NCBI RefSeq assembly: GCF_021168555.1
Contig: NZ_JAJOZS010000005.1
Span: forward strand, 186,001 to 250,000
Reading direction: 5' to 3'
DNA from: Stenotrophomonas sp. MMGLT7
Lineage (GTDB): Bacteria > Pseudomonadota > Gammaproteobacteria > Xanthomonadales > Xanthomonadaceae
DNA: 64,000 nucleotides
Shown here: positions 41,283 to 54,290 of the stretch, piece by piece
Position numbering within the stretch: position 1 is the stretch's first letter
How the letters are laid out: every line of letters starts with the position of its first letter
The notes under the pieces: model-generated
What the model saw: only the letters and a program-made list of their open reading frames with translations
Told to the model about the DNA's origin: nothing
The model's database searches: none
Made by a program: the position numbers and the translations under genes

Positions 41283-41962
41283 CCTTCCCCCGCATGCGGG
41301 AGAAGGGAACAGCGCTCGCTCATCCGTAATCGCCGCGGAACTTCCTTCTCCCGTTCACGGGAGAAGGTGGCGCGCAGCGCCGGATGAGGGCGCTTCTGCG
41401 GTGGCTCTCCCATGCTGCAGGCAGCCCCTATCCGCCCTTCGGGCACCTTCCCCCGCACGCGGGAGAAGGGAACAGCGCTCGCTCATCCGGAATCGCCGCG
41501 GAACCTCCCTTCTCCCGTTCACGGGAGAAGGTGGCGCGCAGCGCCGGATGAGGATGCTTTTGCTGCGGCTTTCCCATGCCCCGACCAGCCCCCATCCGCC
41601 CTTCGGGCACCTTCCCCCGCACGCGGGAGAAGGGAACAGCGCTCGCTCATCCGGAATCGCCGCGGAACCTCCCTTCTCCCGTTCACGGGAGAAGGTGGCG
41701 CGCAGCGCCGGATGAGGGCGCTTCTGCGGTGGCTTTCCCATGCTCCAGACAGCCCTCATCCGCCCTTCGGGCACCTTCCCCCGCAAGCGGGAGAAGGGAA
41801 CAGCGCTCGCTCATCCGGAGTCGCCGCAGGACCTCCCTTCTCCCGTTCACGGGAGAAGGGGGCGCGCAGCGCCGGATGAGGGCGCTTCTGCGGTGGCTTT
41901 CCCATGCTGCAGGCAGCCCCCATCCGCCCTTCGGGCACCTTCCCCCGCACGCGGGAGAAGGG
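41283..41962 (+). repeat. Tandem array of 164-bp palindrome-rich units
   Basis: Four full units start at 41283, 41446, 41610 and 41774 (spacing 163-164 bp), and a partial fifth starts at 41938. Each unit contains CCTTCCCCCGC/GCGGGAGAAGG, the nearly perfect CCTTCTCCCGT-TC-ACGGGAGAAGG stem, and GGCGCGCAGCGCC. Units differ by only a few bases. The period is not a multiple of three and no gene is supported, so apparent reading frames here are not credited. Diverged single copies occur at 18458 and 33494. Confidence 0.92.
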
Positions 41963-42059
41963 AGGTTGCCTGTTCCTGCTTCAGGGTGAACAGACAGGTG
42001 AAGGCGGGAACCCTATGCCGGTGCCTTGAGGGAGGGACCGTGAGATTCCATTGCTCATC

Positions 42060-42201: not shown

Positions 42202-42230
42202 AAAAAGAGACGGCGCCCGCAGGCGCCGTC
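42202..42230 (-). terminator. Rho-independent terminator of the ubiD-to-aroD cluster
   Basis: On the minus strand GACGGCGCC pairs perfectly with GGCGCCGTC across four bases and is followed by TCTCTTTTTG. It begins 26 bases after the aroD stop, so it closes the seven-gene cluster. Confidence 0.85.
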
Positions 42231-42256
42231 CTTCGCGAATCGTCAGATCGACGCGA

Positions 42257-43162
42257 TCACTTGCCGCCGCTCACCGAGGCGTGGATCGTGTCCAGCACCT
42301 GCCGCAGCTGCTTGACGTCGACCTGGCCGGGCGCGGAGGGCACGCCGATCATGCCGAAGGTCATGTCGCTGCCGAACACCTCGCCGGACAGGCGCGAGAT
42401 CGCACCCAGGCCGCCCATGGACATGGTCAGCTGCGGCTTGAGCGAGTACTTGGCGCGCACCTGCTCGGTGGCGTCGAGCAGCCGGAGCACGTCGGCCGGG
42501 TTGTGCGGCATCACCGCGATCTTGAGCACGTCCGCGCCCAGCGCGTCCTGCTTGCGCAGGCGGGCGACGATCTCCTCGGTGGCCGGGGTGGCCTGGAAAT
42601 CGTGGCTGGACATGACGATGCGGGTGCCGGCCTTGTGCGCGGCGGCCACAACCTGCTCGACCACCTTCTGCTCGCGGAACATCTCCACGTCCAGCAGGTC
42701 GATGAAGTCGGCCTTGATCAGCGCCAGGTACAGCTTGCCGTAGTCGGCGTCGCTGATGGGCTTGGCGCCGCCCTCGGCCTTGGTGCGGAAGGTGAGGATC
42801 ATCGGCTTGCCCTTGGCGGCCTGGGCGACCTGCTTGCCCAGCGCGGCGACCTTGGCCGGGTCGGTGGCGAAGTCCAGGTAGTCGATGCGGAACTCGATCA
42901 GGTCGGCATCGGGGTTGGCGCCGATCACGCGGGCCTGCTCCAGCACCTGCTGCGGGTTGGCGCCGGTGGTCGGGACGATGGTCTTGGGCGCGCCCTGGCC
43001 GATGACGGTGTTGCGGATGGTGAACGGCTGCGCGTGGCGCACGTTCACTGCGGCGGCGCCGGCGCTGGTGGGCGCGGCGGCCAGGGCATCGGTGGTGCCG
43101 GCGGCCAGCATCGGGCCGGCGAGGAATGCGGAGATGGCGAGCATCAGGATGCGGTTGTTCAT
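42257..43162 (-). CDS. aroD: Exported type I 3-dehydroquinate dehydratase (QuiB-like)
   Basis: 301 residues. A signal peptide (NNRILMLAISAFLAGPMLA, cleavage near DALA) precedes a complete AroD-type TIM barrel. The catalytic residues align to E. coli AroD with a constant offset of 44: Glu90, Arg92 (IEFRIDY), Arg126 (LTFRTKAE), His187 (MSSHDF), Schiff-base Lys214 (VLKIAVMP) and Arg257 (AISRLSG). The enzyme dehydrates 3-dehydroquinate to 3-dehydroshikimate. Export argues for quinate catabolism, where membrane quinate dehydrogenase makes dehydroquinate in the periplasm, as with QuiB of Acinetobacter. It is the last gene of the cluster, 74 bases after the porin gene. Confidence 0.92.
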   Translation of the reverse strand: MNNRILMLAISAFLAGPMLAAGTTDALAAAPTSAGAAAVNVRHAQPFTIRNTVIGQGAPKTIVPTTGANPQQVLEQARVIGANPDADLIEFRIDYLDFATDPAKVAALGKQVAQAAKGKPMILTFRTKAEGGAKPISDADYGKLYLALIKADFIDLLDVEMFREQKVVEQVVAAAHKAGTRIVMSSHDFQATPATEEIVARLRKQDALGADVLKIAVMPHNPADVLRLLDATEQVRAKYSLKPQLTMSMGGLGAISRLSGEVFGSDMTFGMIGVPSAPGQVDVKQLRQVLDTIHASVSGGK

Positions 43163-43236
43163 GGCAATGACCTTGAGTCTAGGCAATTGGAGCGGCGGCA
43201 GCGAACCCGCCGCCGCTCGAGGGGGGGATGCGGCGG

Positions 43237-44619
43237 TCAGAAGGTGATCTTGGCCTGCAGGCCGAGCGCCAGCACGTTGTCGGTATTCTTGTAGCGGAAC
43301 GTGCCCGGGTTGGTGATGTACTGCACGTCCGGACGCAGCGACAGCCACGGCTTGACCTGGAAGGTGTAGGCCACCTCCCACAGCTCCTCGGCCTGGTTGA
43401 GCTCCCAGTCCGGGTCGCTGATCAGGCCCATCGCCTGCAGCTGCAACTGCTGCTCCAGCAGGTGGCGGTTGATCGAGGCGCGCACGTAGCCCACCGCCAC
43501 GCGGTCCTGCGGACGGCTGTGGAAGATCCCCTGGTAGACGAAGCCGGCGGAGAACCAGCGGTTCATCACCGCGGTCTGCTGCGACTGCGCGGTGTACTGC
43601 GCGAACAGGCTCAGGCCGCCGTCGACCGCGTTGTTGGTGATCTTCTGGTCGGTCATGATGTAGCCGCCCTCGCGATGGTCCGCGATCAGCGCGTTGCGGT
43701 TGCCGACCATCCTCGCGTCCGAGGTGTCGTAGTAGTAGCCGATCTTGTAGTGGCCGGGGAAGTTGCCCTTGTTGGCGGTGCCCGGCGCCCATTCGAACTC
43801 GATCGGGTACAGGTGGCCGGTGGTGCCGTGCTCGTGCAGGCTCCAGCGGTTGGCCTCCAGGTTGTAGTTGGTGTTGACCAGCACCATGCCGGTGCGCAGC
43901 GTCGTCTCCGGCGTGGGATGGATGGTGACGTGGGTGGCCCAGCGCGGCCGCGGCCAGTTGGTCCAGCCGGCGCTGGTGGACAGCGAGATCGGGTGTGCGC
44001 ACAGCGCGGCGTTGACGAAGTTGGTCATGATCTGGTTGATGCCGAAATCATTGCCCATCACGTAGAAGCCGGCCTTCCAGTTGAGCTTCTTGTCGAAGAA
44101 GTTCTGGTCGTAGCTCAGTTCGGTCAGGCGGGTGAACTGGTCGCTGTAGATCTCCTGGATCGGCATGTAGTCGTTGCCGGCCAGGTCCTGCGAGGTGCCG
44201 CGGCCGCGGCGGTCGTTGATGGTCAGGTGGAAGCGGGCGTCGCCCCAGAAGCTGGTGAGCTTGCCCATGTCCAGGTCCACGCCGACCTGGGTCTGGAAGG
44301 CGTTGCGCGCGCTGTGGTCGATGCCGCCGTCCACCACGCCCATGGCCTCGGTGATGAAGCCGCCGCGGAAGGAAATGCCGTTGGCGGCCCACTCGCTGCG
44401 CTTGCCGTTCCAGTCGCCGGTCATGGTCTTGCCGGTGTACAGGTCCGGTACCGCCGCCGCCGCCGCGGCGGACGCCAGCGCGACACTCCCGCCCGCGGCC
44501 GCCCCGGCCGGGGCGCCGGCCTCTTCGGCCAACGCCGTCCACGACGGGCCCGCCAGGGCGCAGGCCACCAGCAGCGGCAGCGCCGCGCGGCGGGGATGTC
44601 TGTGATTGATCGTGTTCAT
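43237..44619 (-). CDS. OprB-family carbohydrate-selective porin (QuiX-like)
   Basis: 460 residues from ATG 44619. A signal peptide ends near TALAEEA, followed by an Ala/Gly-rich spacer. The mature protein is a beta-barrel rich in aromatic residues. OprB family features include LYTGKTMTGDWNGKRSEWAANGISF near the N-terminus, FYVMGNDFGINQIMTNFVNAALCAHP, and the C-terminal YTFQVKPWLSLRPDVQYITNPG, ending in Phe. OprB porins admit sugars and polyols. Between a beta-helix protein and an exported dehydroquinate dehydratase, uptake of quinate or shikimate through the outer membrane is likely, parallel to QuiX in the Acinetobacter qui operon. A 242-base gap upstream may hold an internal promoter. Confidence 0.88.
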   Translation of the reverse strand: MNTINHRHPRRAALPLLVACALAGPSWTALAEEAGAPAGAAAGGSVALASAAAAAAVPDLYTGKTMTGDWNGKRSEWAANGISFRGGFITEAMGVVDGGIDHSARNAFQTQVGVDLDMGKLTSFWGDARFHLTINDRRGRGTSQDLAGNDYMPIQEIYSDQFTRLTELSYDQNFFDKKLNWKAGFYVMGNDFGINQIMTNFVNAALCAHPISLSTSAGWTNWPRPRWATHVTIHPTPETTLRTGMVLVNTNYNLEANRWSLHEHGTTGHLYPIEFEWAPGTANKGNFPGHYKIGYYYDTSDARMVGNRNALIADHREGGYIMTDQKITNNAVDGGLSLFAQYTAQSQQTAVMNRWFSAGFVYQGIFHSRPQDRVAVGYVRASINRHLLEQQLQLQAMGLISDPDWELNQAEELWEVAYTFQVKPWLSLRPDVQYITNPGTFRYKNTDNVLALGLQAKITF

Positions 44620-44861
44620 GTACTGCCTCGTCTTCAGTTGATCGTCGTCGTTGTCGTGTTGCCGTAGGCGGCCATCGACGGCCGCCCGCATCGTTCGGGT
44701 CCGACCCGGCCGGCCGCGACGGGCGGCTTGCCGGCCATGCGCATGGCATCCGGGCCGTCGTGGACCGGAAAGCCAGCCGGGGGAGAGGTGCGCAACGCCG
44801 GGGGAGCGGCGCTGCGCGGGAGCGCGCGGGTGTCCTCGTCACACCCGCACGTCCCTGGGAC

Positions 44862-46445
44862 TTACTTGCGCAGCGCCAGCGGCTTGCTCAGCGGCGAGGT
44901 GGCGCCGTCGACCGTGGTCACCGTCGCGGTGACGTTGGCGATCCCGGCGGCGTCCTGGCCGGCCAGCTCGTAGCTGAAGCTGGCTTTGCCCTGGGCGTCG
45001 ACCGGCACGCTGACGTAGCCGAGGTAGCGCTCGGCCTCGTCCTGCTCGGGCCGGCTGTTGGCGAACAGCTCGACGCGGTAGAGCGTGCCCGGCTGGCCGT
45101 CGAAGCGTCCGTCCACCTGCACGCCCTTGCCGCTGCGGCGCGCCGCGGTCAGCACCGGCGCGGGCTGGCCGTAGTTCGGGGTCTGCTCGCAATCGGCGCT
45201 GTCGCCGTCCAGCGCGCAGATCTTCTCCAGCTTGCTCGGATCGCTCTCGATGCCGCCGCCACGGTTGCCGATGTACTTGCCGTGCTCCAGCCCGGGCACG
45301 TTGAACACGATCGCGCCCTTCTGCTCGGGCAGGCAGGCGCCGCCGGCGAAGCAGCGGAGGATGTCCTTGCCGTTGTCGACCATCACGTTGCCGGTGATGG
45401 TGTTGATGGACGGGCCGAGCACGCGGTTCTTGCCGTAGGTGCCGTCGGGGCCGGGCAGCGCTTCCGGGCGCACCGACACCGCCACGCGGTTGCCGCGCAT
45501 GATGTTGCCCGAGACGATGTTGCCGGTGCCGCTGAGGGTGACCGCCGAGGAGATCCCGGTGAAGGTGTTGCCGGAGATGAAGTTGCGGTTGCCCCAGTTC
45601 AGCTGCACGCCGTCGGACATGTTCTCGAAGTGGTTGTGCACGATCGTGTTGTCGTTGCCCCACAGGATCTCCAGGCCCTGCGACGGCTCCTTGTTGTTCT
45701 TGTCGCTGCTGGTGATGTAGTTGTCGGCGATCAGGTTGAACGCCGAGCCGCGCGTGGCCTCCATCGCGTCGCCGTTGTCGATGAACACGTTGCGCAGGAT
45801 CTTGTTGTGCACCGTGGTGGTCGCGGTGGAGTTGCCCTGGCCGTCGTCGCCGGTGAGCATGATGCCGGCGCCGCCGATGTTGTGGACCAGGCGGTTTTCG
45901 TGGATCAGGCTGCCGCTGGCGCGGTTGAGCAGGATGCCGATGCAGAAGTTGCGCACCTCGATGCCGTGCAGTTCCACGCCATTGGTGTCGCGCAGGATCA
46001 GGCCGGGCAGCGTGGTGGTGCGCACGTTGGTGCCGAAGGTGCCGGGAACGGCGCCGGGGCACGATTCCGGGTCGGTGCCGCCAATGTACTCGGAGCCGTC
46101 GATCACCACGTAGGTGCCGTTGCGGTTGTAGTCGACGTTGTCGATCACCACCGGTCCCTTGATCGGCGGCAGTTCGCTCTTGGTCTTGATCACGTACGGG
46201 CCCTTGCCGATCGCCGACAGCTCGATGCGGTACTTGCCCGGGGCGGCGTTGTTCTGTTCCAGCGCCCAGCGGAAGGTGCCCTGGCTGCCGTCGTCGGCGT
46301 AGCTGGTGACCTTCAGTACCTGGCTCGGCTGCGGACGCGGCTGCGCCATGCCGGCGACGGCCGGATCATGGCCGGCGTTCTGGGCGAGGGCGGGCGTGGC
46401 CATCAGCGCCAGGGCCAGCAGGGAATAGGAAGTCGTGGTGCTCAT
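44862..46445 (-). CDS. Exported right-handed parallel beta-helix protein, candidate 3-dehydroshikimate dehydratase
   Basis: 527 residues. Signal peptide (MSTTTSYSLLALALMATPALA), then from about 110 to 370 a series of PbH1 repeats such as GVELHGIEVRNFCIGILLN, NLIADNYITSS, NTIVHNHFENMSDGVQLN and NFISGNTFTGISSAV. A C-terminal beta-sandwich-like region follows (YRVELFANSRPEQDEAERYLG). The fold is that of pectin lyases and of NosD-type proteins. Placed between an OprB porin and an exported dehydroquinate dehydratase, it is the best candidate for a QuiC-like periplasmic 3-dehydroshikimate dehydratase. QuiC of Acinetobacter is, as I recall, also of pectin-lyase-like type. A carbohydrate lyase remains possible. 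Confidence 0.8.
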   Translation of the reverse strand: MSTTTSYSLLALALMATPALAQNAGHDPAVAGMAQPRPQPSQVLKVTSYADDGSQGTFRWALEQNNAAPGKYRIELSAIGKGPYVIKTKSELPPIKGPVVIDNVDYNRNGTYVVIDGSEYIGGTDPESCPGAVPGTFGTNVRTTTLPGLILRDTNGVELHGIEVRNFCIGILLNRASGSLIHENRLVHNIGGAGIMLTGDDGQGNSTATTTVHNKILRNVFIDNGDAMEATRGSAFNLIADNYITSSDKNNKEPSQGLEILWGNDNTIVHNHFENMSDGVQLNWGNRNFISGNTFTGISSAVTLSGTGNIVSGNIMRGNRVAVSVRPEALPGPDGTYGKNRVLGPSINTITGNVMVDNGKDILRCFAGGACLPEQKGAIVFNVPGLEHGKYIGNRGGGIESDPSKLEKICALDGDSADCEQTPNYGQPAPVLTAARRSGKGVQVDGRFDGQPGTLYRVELFANSRPEQDEAERYLGYVSVPVDAQGKASFSYELAGQDAAGIANVTATVTTVDGATSPLSKPLALRK

Positions 46446-46502
46446 CTTGCATTTCCTTGTGTTGACGTTCTCGTCGTAATCGAATGACGGGGCAGAGGCG
46501 GC

Positions 46503-46940
46503 TCAGCGGTCGTGCCTGTCCCACAGGATCTTGGTGCCGAAGCCCAGCCGGTTGTCGGTGAGCTTGAGCTGCAGCAACTGGATCTCCCATACCGGTGCGG
46601 ACATGCCGCGGGCCTGCGGGAAGCGCTGGTAGTACATCGCCAGCGCCGCTTCGCGTTCGCTCTCGTCCTCGAGGACGCGGGCCGGGCCGTAGAACTGCAG
46701 CCCGCGCACCTCGGAGATCTCCAGCGGCTGGCCGGTGATGGTACCGGCGGCGTAGCGATTGGCCAGCAGCATCTCGCTGTGGCGGGTGTCGCGGCTGCCC
46801 AGCAGCACGAAGCGGTTGCTTCCGGCGTCGAAGGCGAAGAAGGCGTTGGCGGCCCACGGCACGTCGCCGAAGCACACCGCCAGCGACAACACGTGGTGTT
46901 CGAGCAGGAAGTCGGCGATGGGGTCGGGCAGCGGTTTCAT
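46503..46940 (-). CDS. YhbP-like (UPF0306) flavin-fold protein, copy 1
   Basis: 145 residues from ATG 46940; an in-frame ATG at 46970 would add ten. It belongs to the pyridoxamine-5'-phosphate-oxidase-like split-barrel group and resembles E. coli YhbP throughout: NAFFAFDAGSNRFVLLGSRD, TRHSEMLLANRYAAGTI, GLQFYGPARVLE, FPQARGMSAPVWEI, and LTDNRLGFGTKILWDRH. Family function is not established; flavin or a related cofactor may bind. It lies in the ubiD/ubiX cluster, and a close paralogue is encoded at 53680-54117. Both loci carry a perfect FNR-type box upstream, suggesting a role under low oxygen. Confidence 0.85.
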   Translation of the reverse strand: MKPLPDPIADFLLEHHVLSLAVCFGDVPWAANAFFAFDAGSNRFVLLGSRDTRHSEMLLANRYAAGTITGQPLEISEVRGLQFYGPARVLEDESEREAALAMYYQRFPQARGMSAPVWEIQLLQLKLTDNRLGFGTKILWDRHDR

Positions 46941-46976
46941 GGAAGTTCCGGAAGGGGTCGGGGTGGACATCTGGGT

Positions 46977-47696
46977 TCAGCCGAAGACCCGGACCCAGAG
47001 TGCCGAGATCGGCATGGCGAACAGCAGCGCCGGCAGCATGTTGGCGACCGGGAAGACCTTGATGCCGCAGATGCGGAAGCCGGTTGCTAGCATCAGCAGG
47101 CCGCCCACCGCGGAGAAGTCGGCCTGCATCGCCGGCGTGGTCAGCGGCAGGATCAGCACCGCGCCGAAGGCCAGCGCCAGCTGGATGGCCAGCTGCGGCA
47201 CGGCGATGGTGGCCACCGCGTAGCCGAGCGTGGTGGCGAAGATCGCCGCAGTGAAGAAGTCCAGGAACGACTTGGCGATCAGCACCGAGGAGTCGCCGGT
47301 CATGCCCTCGTGCATGGAGCCGAAGATGCCGGTGCCGCTGGCGCAGAACAGCACGATGATGGCGACGAACTTCTCCAGGAATTCCTCCTGGGTGATGCCG
47401 GTCTTGGGCGCGGGCAGGATCTTCTCCACGCCGTTCCTGGCGAAGTTGCCGAGCTTGCCGATGCCCTTCTCCAGGTAGATCATCTCGCCGACCAGCGCGC
47501 CGAGGATGCCCGAGAGCACCATCACCGGCATGTGCGCGGCCTTGTTGATGAGGATGACCGACATCGCCATAGAGGCGGCGCCGAAGGTGAGCGGCATGGC
47601 GCTGCGCAGCCGCTCGGGCATGCGCTTGGCCAGCATCGCGCCGCCGATGGCGCCGAAGAGAACGGCGGCACCGTTGATATAGGGTCCGATGATCAT
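46977..47696 (-). CDS. DUF554 (YqgA/YdfK-like) membrane protein
   Basis: 239 residues with about seven membrane segments and alternating Gly-rich loops: [21 protein letters not shown] at the start, [42 protein letters not shown], and [20 protein letters not shown]. This is the DUF554 family of putative transporters. Start 47696 overlaps the ubiX stop by ATGA, so it is tightly coupled to the UbiX/UbiD pair. Transport of the aromatic acid or its decarboxylated product across the inner membrane is a testable guess. Confidence 0.88.
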
Positions 47697-48307
47697 GGGG
47701 CTTCCCCTTCTTGGGTGATGGCGGGCAGGGTCTCGCCCCACCGCGGCAGAGTCTTGGAATCGAAGCCGAGCAGGCCGATGGCCCGGGCGGCGCTATGGGT
47801 GACGATCTGGTCGATCGATTGCGGGCCGGCGTACAGCGCCGGGACCGGCGGGAACACGATCGCCCCGTATTCGGTGGCGGCGGCCATGTTGCGGATATGG
47901 CCCAGGTGCAGCGGTGTCTCGCGCACCATCAGCACCAGCTTGCGGCGCTCCTTGAGCACCACGTCGGCGGCGCGGGTGAGCAGGTTGTCGGTGATGCCGT
48001 TGGCGATGGCGGCCAGCGAGTGCATCGAGCACGGCGCCACGATCATGCCGGCGGTCTGGAACGAGCCGCTGGAGATCGCCGCGCCCACCGCGCCGGTGGG
48101 ATAGAACACGTCGGCCATCGCGATCACCTCGTCGCGGCTGAGCTGGGTCTCCTGCTCGCGGGTCAGGCCGGCGGCCTTGGACATCACCAGGTGGGTCTCG
48201 GCCCCCAGCTCCCGAAGGAGCTGGAGTGCCTTGACGCCATACTGGAAGCCGGTGGCACCGCTGATACCGACGATCACCCTCGGTCTTTGCATGGCGTGGC
48301 TTTGCAT
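47693..48307 (-). CDS. ubiX: UbiX-family flavin prenyltransferase
   Basis: 204 residues. Flavoprotein motifs typical of UbiX/Pad1 are clear: [74 protein letters not shown] and the Pro-rich VFPPVPALY. UbiX attaches a dimethylallyl group to FMN to make prenyl-FMN, the cofactor of UbiD decarboxylases, one of which is encoded 13 bases upstream. GGAG lies seven bases before ATG 48307; an in-frame ATG at 48292 is also possible because 15 bases at the start are duplicated. As it sits in a catabolic cluster it may be a dedicated copy rather than the ubiquinone-pathway one. Confidence 0.93.
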
Positions 48308-48320
48308 GGTGTCGCTCCGC

Positions 48321-49820
48321 TTACTGCTTGTTGAAGCCGGGGATGAAGCGGTTCACGTCCACTTCCAGGAACTGCGAGCGCTGGAAGTTGGCCTTCAGCT
48401 TGTACGGCACCGTGCAGTCGTAGATGGTCTTGCAGGTGACGCCGTGGTCGCGGATGGACGGACTGAACGCGGGATCCTGCGACGGATCGAGCGGATGGCA
48501 GCGCACGCCGGGGATGAAGATGGTGTCCACGTCGCCCTGGTAGCGGGTGGTCATCGCCCACATCACGTCCGACAGGTCGAAGATGTCCACGTCCTCGTCG
48601 ACCAGGAACACGTGCTTGAGCTCGGAGAAGGCCGAGAAGGCCAGCAGCGCGGCCTGGCGCTGGCGTCCCTCGTCCTGGCCGGTGCGCTTCTTGATCTGCA
48701 GCACCGCCACGTACTTGCCGGTACCCGGCGACGGGCAGTGCACGTTCTGCACCAGGCCCGGCAGCGCCATCTCGATCAGGGTCAGGATGCTGGCCTCGGT
48801 CGGGATGCCGGCCATGTTGGTGTGCTCGTCCGACGGGCCGATGCAGGTCTGCAGGATCGGGTGCTTGCGGTGGGTGACGGCCTTGACCTTGATCACCGGA
48901 ACCGCGGCCTTGGCCTCGCCGGTGTAGCCGGGGAACTCGGGCATGGCCTTGCCGGTGTTGGTGTTCTGGTCCTCGCGCACGCGGTAGTCCGGCAGCAGCT
49001 CGCCTTCGATCACGATCTCGGCGTTGGCGATGCCCAGGGTGCCCTTGACCGCCACGCCCTCGACCAGCTCGACCGCCTTGCCGCGCAGGCCGCCGGCGAT
49101 GGACAGCTCGTCGAAGCCCAGCGGGGTGGTCGGGGCCTCGAAGCAGGCGCCGATCTCGATGGCCGGGTCCACGCCGATGGAGATGGTGATCGGCATCGGC
49201 TTGCCGTCCTTCTCGTACTTCTGGCGGAACTGGTCGAGGTGGCGGCCGGGGACGAAGTACATCGAGATCTCGTCCTTGCCCTGCACGCACAGGCGGTGGA
49301 TGGTGACGTCGTGCTCGCCGGTCTCCGGGTCGGCGCCGTAGCACATGCCCAGGGTGAAGTAGGGGCCGGCATCCTCAGGGGTGTTCTTCGGCGCCGGCAG
49401 CAGCGTGCGCAGGTCGAAGCCGGGGTCGCTGGCCAGGTGCACCACTTCCTGGCACACCGCCTTCTCCTTGGGAATGACCACCGGCGCGATCGCGTTCTTG
49501 ACCGCTTCGCGCATCTGGAAGCCGAGCTTCTCCTTGTCCATGCCGAACATGCGCGCCACGCGCTGGCGCGAGGCCAGCAGGCCGATCAGCACGCGCACGT
49601 CGTCGAAGCCCTTGACCTTGTTGAACATCATCGCCGGACCGGTCTGGGTCGGGCGCTGCACGGTGCCGCCGGCGCCGACATAGCGATAGACGCCGGACAG
49701 TTCGGCTTCCGGATCGACCGGCTCGTTGGTCTCGATGTATTCGCCTTCGTACTGCTTGAGCAGTTCGATCGCTGAGCGCAGATCGTGTACCTGCGAGGCG
49801 TTGGGGGTGTTGTTGCTCAT
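48321..49820 (-). CDS. UbiD-family prenyl-FMN-dependent aromatic decarboxylase
   Basis: 499 residues from ATG 49820 (501 from the adjacent ATG at 49826, which sits closer to GGAG). UbiD features include [54 protein letters not shown], the [15 protein letters not shown] region and [17 protein letters not shown]. Members decarboxylate hydroxybenzoates, protocatechuate (AroY-like), vanillate, phenylacrylates and others. With qui-like dehydratases in the same cluster, protocatechuate to catechol is the favoured reaction, but the substrate is inferred, not read. First gene of the cluster, about 80 bases downstream of a perfect FNR-type box. Confidence 0.9.
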
Positions 49821-49899
49821 TGTCATGTGTCTCCGGGAATGAAGGTTTCCGCCAGGCTTCCGCCGCAGCGAATACTCCTCCCTCGCGGGCCGGGACACA

Positions 49900-49913
49900 T
49901 TGATCCTGATCAA
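49900..49913 (-). promoter_or_regulatory. Perfect FNR/ANR-type box upstream of the UbiD cluster
   Basis: TTGATCCTGATCAA matches the consensus TTGAT-N4-ATCAA exactly. It is centred about 80 bases before the ubiD start, and a GAGTATTC -10-like stretch (49877-49870) lies at the distance expected for class II activation. It implies oxygen-responsive control by a CRP/FNR-family protein; which one is not known. Confidence 0.7.
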
Positions 49914-54276: not shown

Positions 54277-54290
54277 TTGATTCGCATCAA
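54277..54290 (-). promoter_or_regulatory. Perfect FNR/ANR-type box upstream of yhbP-like copy 2 and dsbB
   Basis: TTGATTCGCATCAA fits TTGAT-N4-ATCAA exactly, like the box at 49900. It is 80 bases before the leader frame and 160 before the yhbP-like ATG. No second intergenic gene competes for it on this strand. Confidence 0.65.

Follow-up and report, generated by a model that had tools for sequence, protein, structure and literature searches.

In the genome of Stenotrophomonas sp. MMGLT7 (4.27 Mb, 43 contigs, 99.9% complete), we analysed a putative operon within a stretch of 64,000 nucleotides of contig NZ_JAJOZS010000005.1 (positions 186,001 to 250,000), hereafter the window, in which genes for a UbiD-type decarboxylase adjoin genes of the periplasmic quinate/shikimate (qui) route. 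Seven genes follow one another on the minus strand. The first, ubiD (48321–49826, 501 amino acids), encodes a predicted AroY-type protocatechuate decarboxylase, and ubiX (47693–48307, 204 amino acids) a predicted flavin prenyltransferase that would supply UbiD with prenylated FMN (prFMN). They are followed by genes for a DUF554 membrane protein (46977–47696, 239 amino acids) and a YhbP-like protein of the PNPOx fold (46503–46970, 155 amino acids). Next comes quiC (44862–46445, 527 amino acids), which codes for a putative exported beta-helix 3-dehydroshikimate dehydratase, then the gene of an OprB-family porin (43237–44619, 460 amino acids; assigned by family match), which likely serves outer-membrane uptake, and finally quiB (42257–43162, 301 amino acids) for a putative exported type I 3-dehydroquinate dehydratase.

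An initial annotation of this DNA had listed the same seven genes with the same family assignments, between an FNR-type box and a strong terminator. The Rho-independent terminator behind quiB indeed has the expected form (minus strand, 42208–42231; stem 42231–42208, then CTTTTTG). At the 5' end, a perfect FNR-type site, TTGATCAGGATCAA, occupies positions 49900–49913, its centre 80 nucleotides upstream of the ubiD ATG at 49826. The earlier choice of a TTG at 49913 as ubiD start would place the start codon inside this box, and homologues are consistent with the ATG instead. The decarboxylase genes had further been described as fused with the qui set. Judged by gap sizes they are clustered, not fused: from ubiD to quiB the intergenic gaps measure 13, -4, 6, 57, 242 and 74 nucleotides, such that ubiD, ubiX, DUF554 and yhbP are packed tightly, in near or true overlap. 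A single transcript for all seven genes is likely, and the 242-nucleotide gap between quiC and oprB leaves room for a further promoter. On the 3' side of the cluster, positions 41350–41990 hold repeated sequence with overlapping spurious open reading frames on both strands, which resembles interspersed repeats.

Among structurally characterised UbiD enzymes, the best matches of the window protein were the AroY structures 5o3n, 5ny5 and 5o3m (680–683 bits, versus 214 for the next family member), with 62% identity to AroY (5ny5). Alignment to 5ny5 placed R195, E297, H335, K371 and H444 opposite AroY R188, E289, H327, K363 and H436, five residues whose exchange abolished activity (PMC5656893). 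Identity and retention of all five residues support the assignment of the window UbiD as an AroY-type protocatechuate decarboxylase, and thereby the earlier proposal that UbiD and UbiX would convert protocatechuate to catechol. The NCBIfam models VdcC (452 bits, cut-off 650) and VdcB (228 bits, cut-off 290) were matched below their cut-offs, and ubiX exceeded the cut-off of NF004685, a VdcB-like model. No small third (D) subunit was seen in the cluster.

For the beta-helix protein, previously a candidate dehydroshikimate dehydratase, we found a match of 477 bits to PDB entry 8wm1, a 3-dehydroshikimate dehydratase, over residues 41–523, followed at a distance by a match of 24 bits, which argues for its identification as QuiC. 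The Pfam label NosD proved superficial for this protein (41 bits). Its N-terminus, MSTTTSYSLLALALMATPALAQ, appears signal-peptide-like by eye. QuiB exceeded the cut-offs of PF01487 and TIGR01093 (type I enzymes), has intact HDF and K-x-A-x-MP motifs and also begins with a hydrophobic, signal-peptide-like stretch. The parallel to quiB, quiX and quiC of Acinetobacter drawn in the initial annotation thus holds for QuiB and QuiC. It does not extend with equal force to QuiX, since the window porin resembles that of a quiBC-less module on contig C5 of the same genome (556 bits) more closely than it does canonical qui-locus porins (about 400 bits), and the name QuiX is therefore uncertain. With regard to dehydroquinate dehydratases elsewhere, a type II enzyme (PF01220) was not found in the genome, in which no genome-wide search for type I enzymes was made; possible reasons are a gap in the assembly, a further type I enzyme or, surprisingly, reliance on the exported one. 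Xanthomonas massiliensis, which carries the nearest locus to the window cluster, encodes a type II enzyme between dsbD and accB.

The remainder of the genome contains candidates for the steps before and after those of the cluster. TIGR03074 identified four membrane dehydrogenases dependent on pyrroloquinoline quinone (PQQ). One of them (contig C18, 13761–16127) falls into a clade with 100/100 support together with every PQQ dehydrogenase whose gene neighbours quiC in other species, which makes it our candidate for QuiA. Its position on another contig agrees with the earlier statement that the membrane quinate dehydrogenase lies outside the window. The genome also contains pqqC. In X. massiliensis, Rahnella sp. 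AA and Rouxiella aceris PQQ dehydrogenases are present and pqqC was not found; QuiA of these three may need external PQQ, or the assemblies may be incomplete.

The single intradiol dioxygenase (PF00775) of the genome is CatA (431 bits, cut-off 392), encoded on contig C41 among catB, catIJ, pcaF and pcaD and adjoining a gene for a BenM/CatM-like regulator. Genes for protocatechuate 3,4-dioxygenase (pcaGH) were not found in the genome, and its LigB-family protein (118 bits, no NCBIfam match at the strict limit) was not recognised as a protocatechuate 4,5-dioxygenase. Without decarboxylation to catechol, protocatechuate made by QuiC would therefore have no recognised route to ring cleavage. With pcaGH absent and a catechol operon present, the decarboxylase would fill this gap. 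The canonical feed of catechol from benzoate or anthranilate was considered and rejected, as the nearest Rieske protein scored far below the BenA and AntA cut-offs. A two-component Rieske aromatic dioxygenase operon (contig C40, 163331–164038) is a possible second source of catechol.

Taken together, QuiC, the AroY-type enzyme, the QuiA candidate, the lack of pcaGH beside a cat operon and the conserved gene order described below support the proposed route from quinate or shikimate through periplasmic protocatechuate to catechol. We consider it probable that the cluster is a quinate/shikimate catabolic operon that uses a catechol branch in place of the protocatechuate branch. Substrates would enter through the OprB porin, and membrane-bound QuiA with its PQQ cofactor would oxidize quinate or shikimate to 3-dehydroquinate or 3-dehydroshikimate in the periplasm, where exported QuiB and QuiC would complete the dehydration to protocatechuate. 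Protocatechuate would then cross the inner membrane by some carrier, for which DUF554 is one candidate, and the AroY-type UbiD, with prFMN from the neighbouring UbiX, would release catechol. CatA would open the ring, and the cat/pca lower pathway on contig C41 would complete the degradation. Control by an FNR-type regulator would direct expression to low oxygen, which suits an enzyme that needs brief oxidation yet is quickly inactivated in air.

For a comparison of gene order, 80 loci with QuiC relatives were retrieved. Eight of them, one from X. massiliensis and seven from genomes of Pantoea, Rahnella and Rouxiella, have ubiD-ubiX-DUF554 directly upstream of quiC, and quiB was detected downstream in 7 of the 8. 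X. massiliensis additionally has yhbP between DUF554 and quiC. The core order is thus shared by X. massiliensis and members of a second bacterial order. Eleven loci, from Stenotrophomonas, Pseudoxanthomonas, Solimonas and Acinetobacter, have relatives of pcaHG at most 10 kb from quiC, and none of the eight ubiD-linked ones does. In related Xanthomonadaceae quiC-oprB-quiB stands near pcaHG, a place that by gene order is occupied by ubiD-ubiX in the window. Among Enterobacterales the cluster is sporadic (one of 296 sampled genomes, which was the query genome itself), and the UbiD proteins encoded in the window, on a plasmid of Pantoea dispersa and in the Enterobacterales clusters are 79–83% identical. 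Sporadic occurrence and high identity point to horizontal transfer, and the module has probably moved between Xanthomonadaceae and Enterobacterales.

Modules without the dehydratases exist as well. On contig C5 (29722–34570) of the same genome, a LysR gene is divergent from ubiD-ubiX-DUF554-yhbP-oprB, quiC and quiB are absent, and the UbiD is 70% identical to that of the window. DUF554 follows ubiX also on Enterobacter and Rahnella plasmids. The window cluster can be read as a hydroxybenzoate-decarboxylase module into which two periplasmic dehydratases were inserted. Megaplasmids of P. dispersa (NZ_CP082347.1) carry ubiX-ubiD with adjoining LysR genes, without DUF554 or quiBC; the UbiD encoded on NZ_CP082347.1 is 83% identical to the window protein.

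The perfect FNR-type box occurs 12 times in 4.27 Mb, against about 0.2 copies expected from base composition, and its occurrence in the window is thus not due to chance. A perfect box, TTGATCTGAATCAA, is found at the equivalent place in X. massiliensis, and proteins resembling FNR, with a C-x2-C-x5-C motif, are encoded in both genomes. The initial annotation had called the route oxygen-regulated. The predicted site and the FNR-like regulators favour this view, with expression probably directed to low oxygen by a regulator of the FNR type. AroY has a half-life of 5–8 min in air, is stable for 14 h without oxygen, and requires oxygen for cofactor maturation (PMC5656893). Since AroY needs oxygen to mature yet dies in air within minutes, we infer that a microaerobic setting would fit both UbiD and the oxygen-using CatA. 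A second perfect FNR-type box, TTGATTCGCATCAA, lies on the plus strand at window positions 54277–54290.

Several observations weigh against the catechol branch as outlined. CatA requires oxygen, which limits an anaerobic interpretation, and quiA is unlinked to the cluster. The Enterobacterales clusters are without the FNR box and instead carry a LysR gene in divergent orientation. The Enterobacterales members of the cluster family also lack CatA, hence there is no ortho-cleavage of catechol in these bacteria. Given the module on C5, the window UbiD may act on protocatechuate of other origin. Finally, one residue of the AroY publication, Arg181, could not be mapped, as 5ny5 has S at that number.

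The enterobacterial genomes bear on a first alternative, in which catechol is the end product: CO2 would be stripped from protocatechuate, to detoxify a phenolic acid or for pH control at low oxygen, and catechol excreted. PF00775 proteins were absent from all six scanned Enterobacterales genomes with the cluster (of seven), and in the scanned Pantoea, Rahnella and Rouxiella cluster genomes no catechol 2,3-dioxygenase passed the family cut-off. In these species catechol is probably excreted or takes another route. The FNR box, suggestive of low-oxygen use in the window species, is compatible with such a role. However, the Stenotrophomonas genome retains its cat operon, X. massiliensis has a matching dioxygenase region, and two Pantoea genomes encode catechol 2,3-dioxygenase-like proteins, albeit below the cut-off. 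We regard this explanation as unlikely for the window cluster. Three Rahnella genomes encode a high-scoring LigB-family protein, which in one of them was identified as gallate dioxygenase.

Two separate functions might also share one operon, with ubiD acting on external protocatechuate, gallate or vanillate and the qui genes feeding another sink, for instance aromatic amino acids. The quiBC-less ubiD-ubiX-DUF554 modules of this genome and of the Enterobacter and Rahnella plasmids would fit such a division, as would the leakage of dehydroshikimate into biosynthesis in A. baylyi (PMC4213383). We nevertheless judge it quite improbable, because QuiC yields precisely the compound on which AroY acts, because two bacterial orders share the linkage and because no other intradiol sink for protocatechuate exists in the genome. 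That UbiD acts mainly on another hydroxybenzoate, such as gallate or 4-hydroxybenzoate, is very doubtful: UbiD relatives vary in substrate, names are transferred by homology and the VdcC match stays under its cut-off, but all five mapped catalytic or catechol-binding residues of AroY are kept and the gene is linked to quiC.

The formation of catechol from quinate was reported long ago for lactobacilli. Compared with known systems, the catechol branch proposed here shares homologous QuiC, QuiB and an OprB-type porin with the quiBCXA and pca genes of Acinetobacter baylyi, where a periplasmic QuiA/QuiB/QuiC route leads from quinate to protocatechuate (PMC4213383). In A. baylyi, however, PcaHG cleaves protocatechuate, whereas in MMGLT7 a decarboxylase stands in place of the missing pcaHG, quiA is located on C18 instead of in the qui region, and an FNR-type box is present. 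The AroY systems of Klebsiella and Enterobacter, with KpdB/KpdD or EcdB/EcdD, have in common with the window the UbiD and UbiX decarboxylase (62% identity) and its active site; the window differs by DUF554 and YhbP, by the lack of a visible D subunit and by the linkage to quiB and quiC. The plasmid modules of Enterobacter mori and Rahnella contain the same ubiD-ubiX-DUF554 core without quiB or quiC. The exchange of pcaHG for aroY has been engineered in Pseudomonas putida and others; in P. putida, deletion of pcaHG combined with aroY, ecdB and catA led protocatechuate via catechol to the ortho pathway (PMC13406360). The rerouting is the same, but the window version is natural, clustered with periplasmic quinate dehydratases and equipped with an FNR-type site.

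Each enzyme and the periplasmic qui route are known. In the literature searched, with subscription journals mostly outside its scope, we found no account of a natural cluster of quiBC with an AroY-type decarboxylase in genomes without pcaGH, nor any account of DUF554 together with UbiD. The physiological roles of AroY-type decarboxylases are usually guessed. Here the genes are linked with a defined protocatechuate source and, within one lineage, with a defined sink, and the genomes concerned are devoid of the classical protocatechuate-cleaving enzyme. The cluster would be a natural counterpart to the bypass used to obtain catechol and muconate from lignin, and low oxygen is suggested as the condition under which the catechol branch is chosen. 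An AlphaFold model of DUF554 from a shallow alignment (predicted local distance difference test score, pLDDT, 36) was unusable and discarded. DUF554, which is kept together with ubiD-ubiX, and YhbP, which recurs in X. massiliensis and in the paralogous C5 cluster, are candidate accessory genes for a temperamental AroY-type enzyme.

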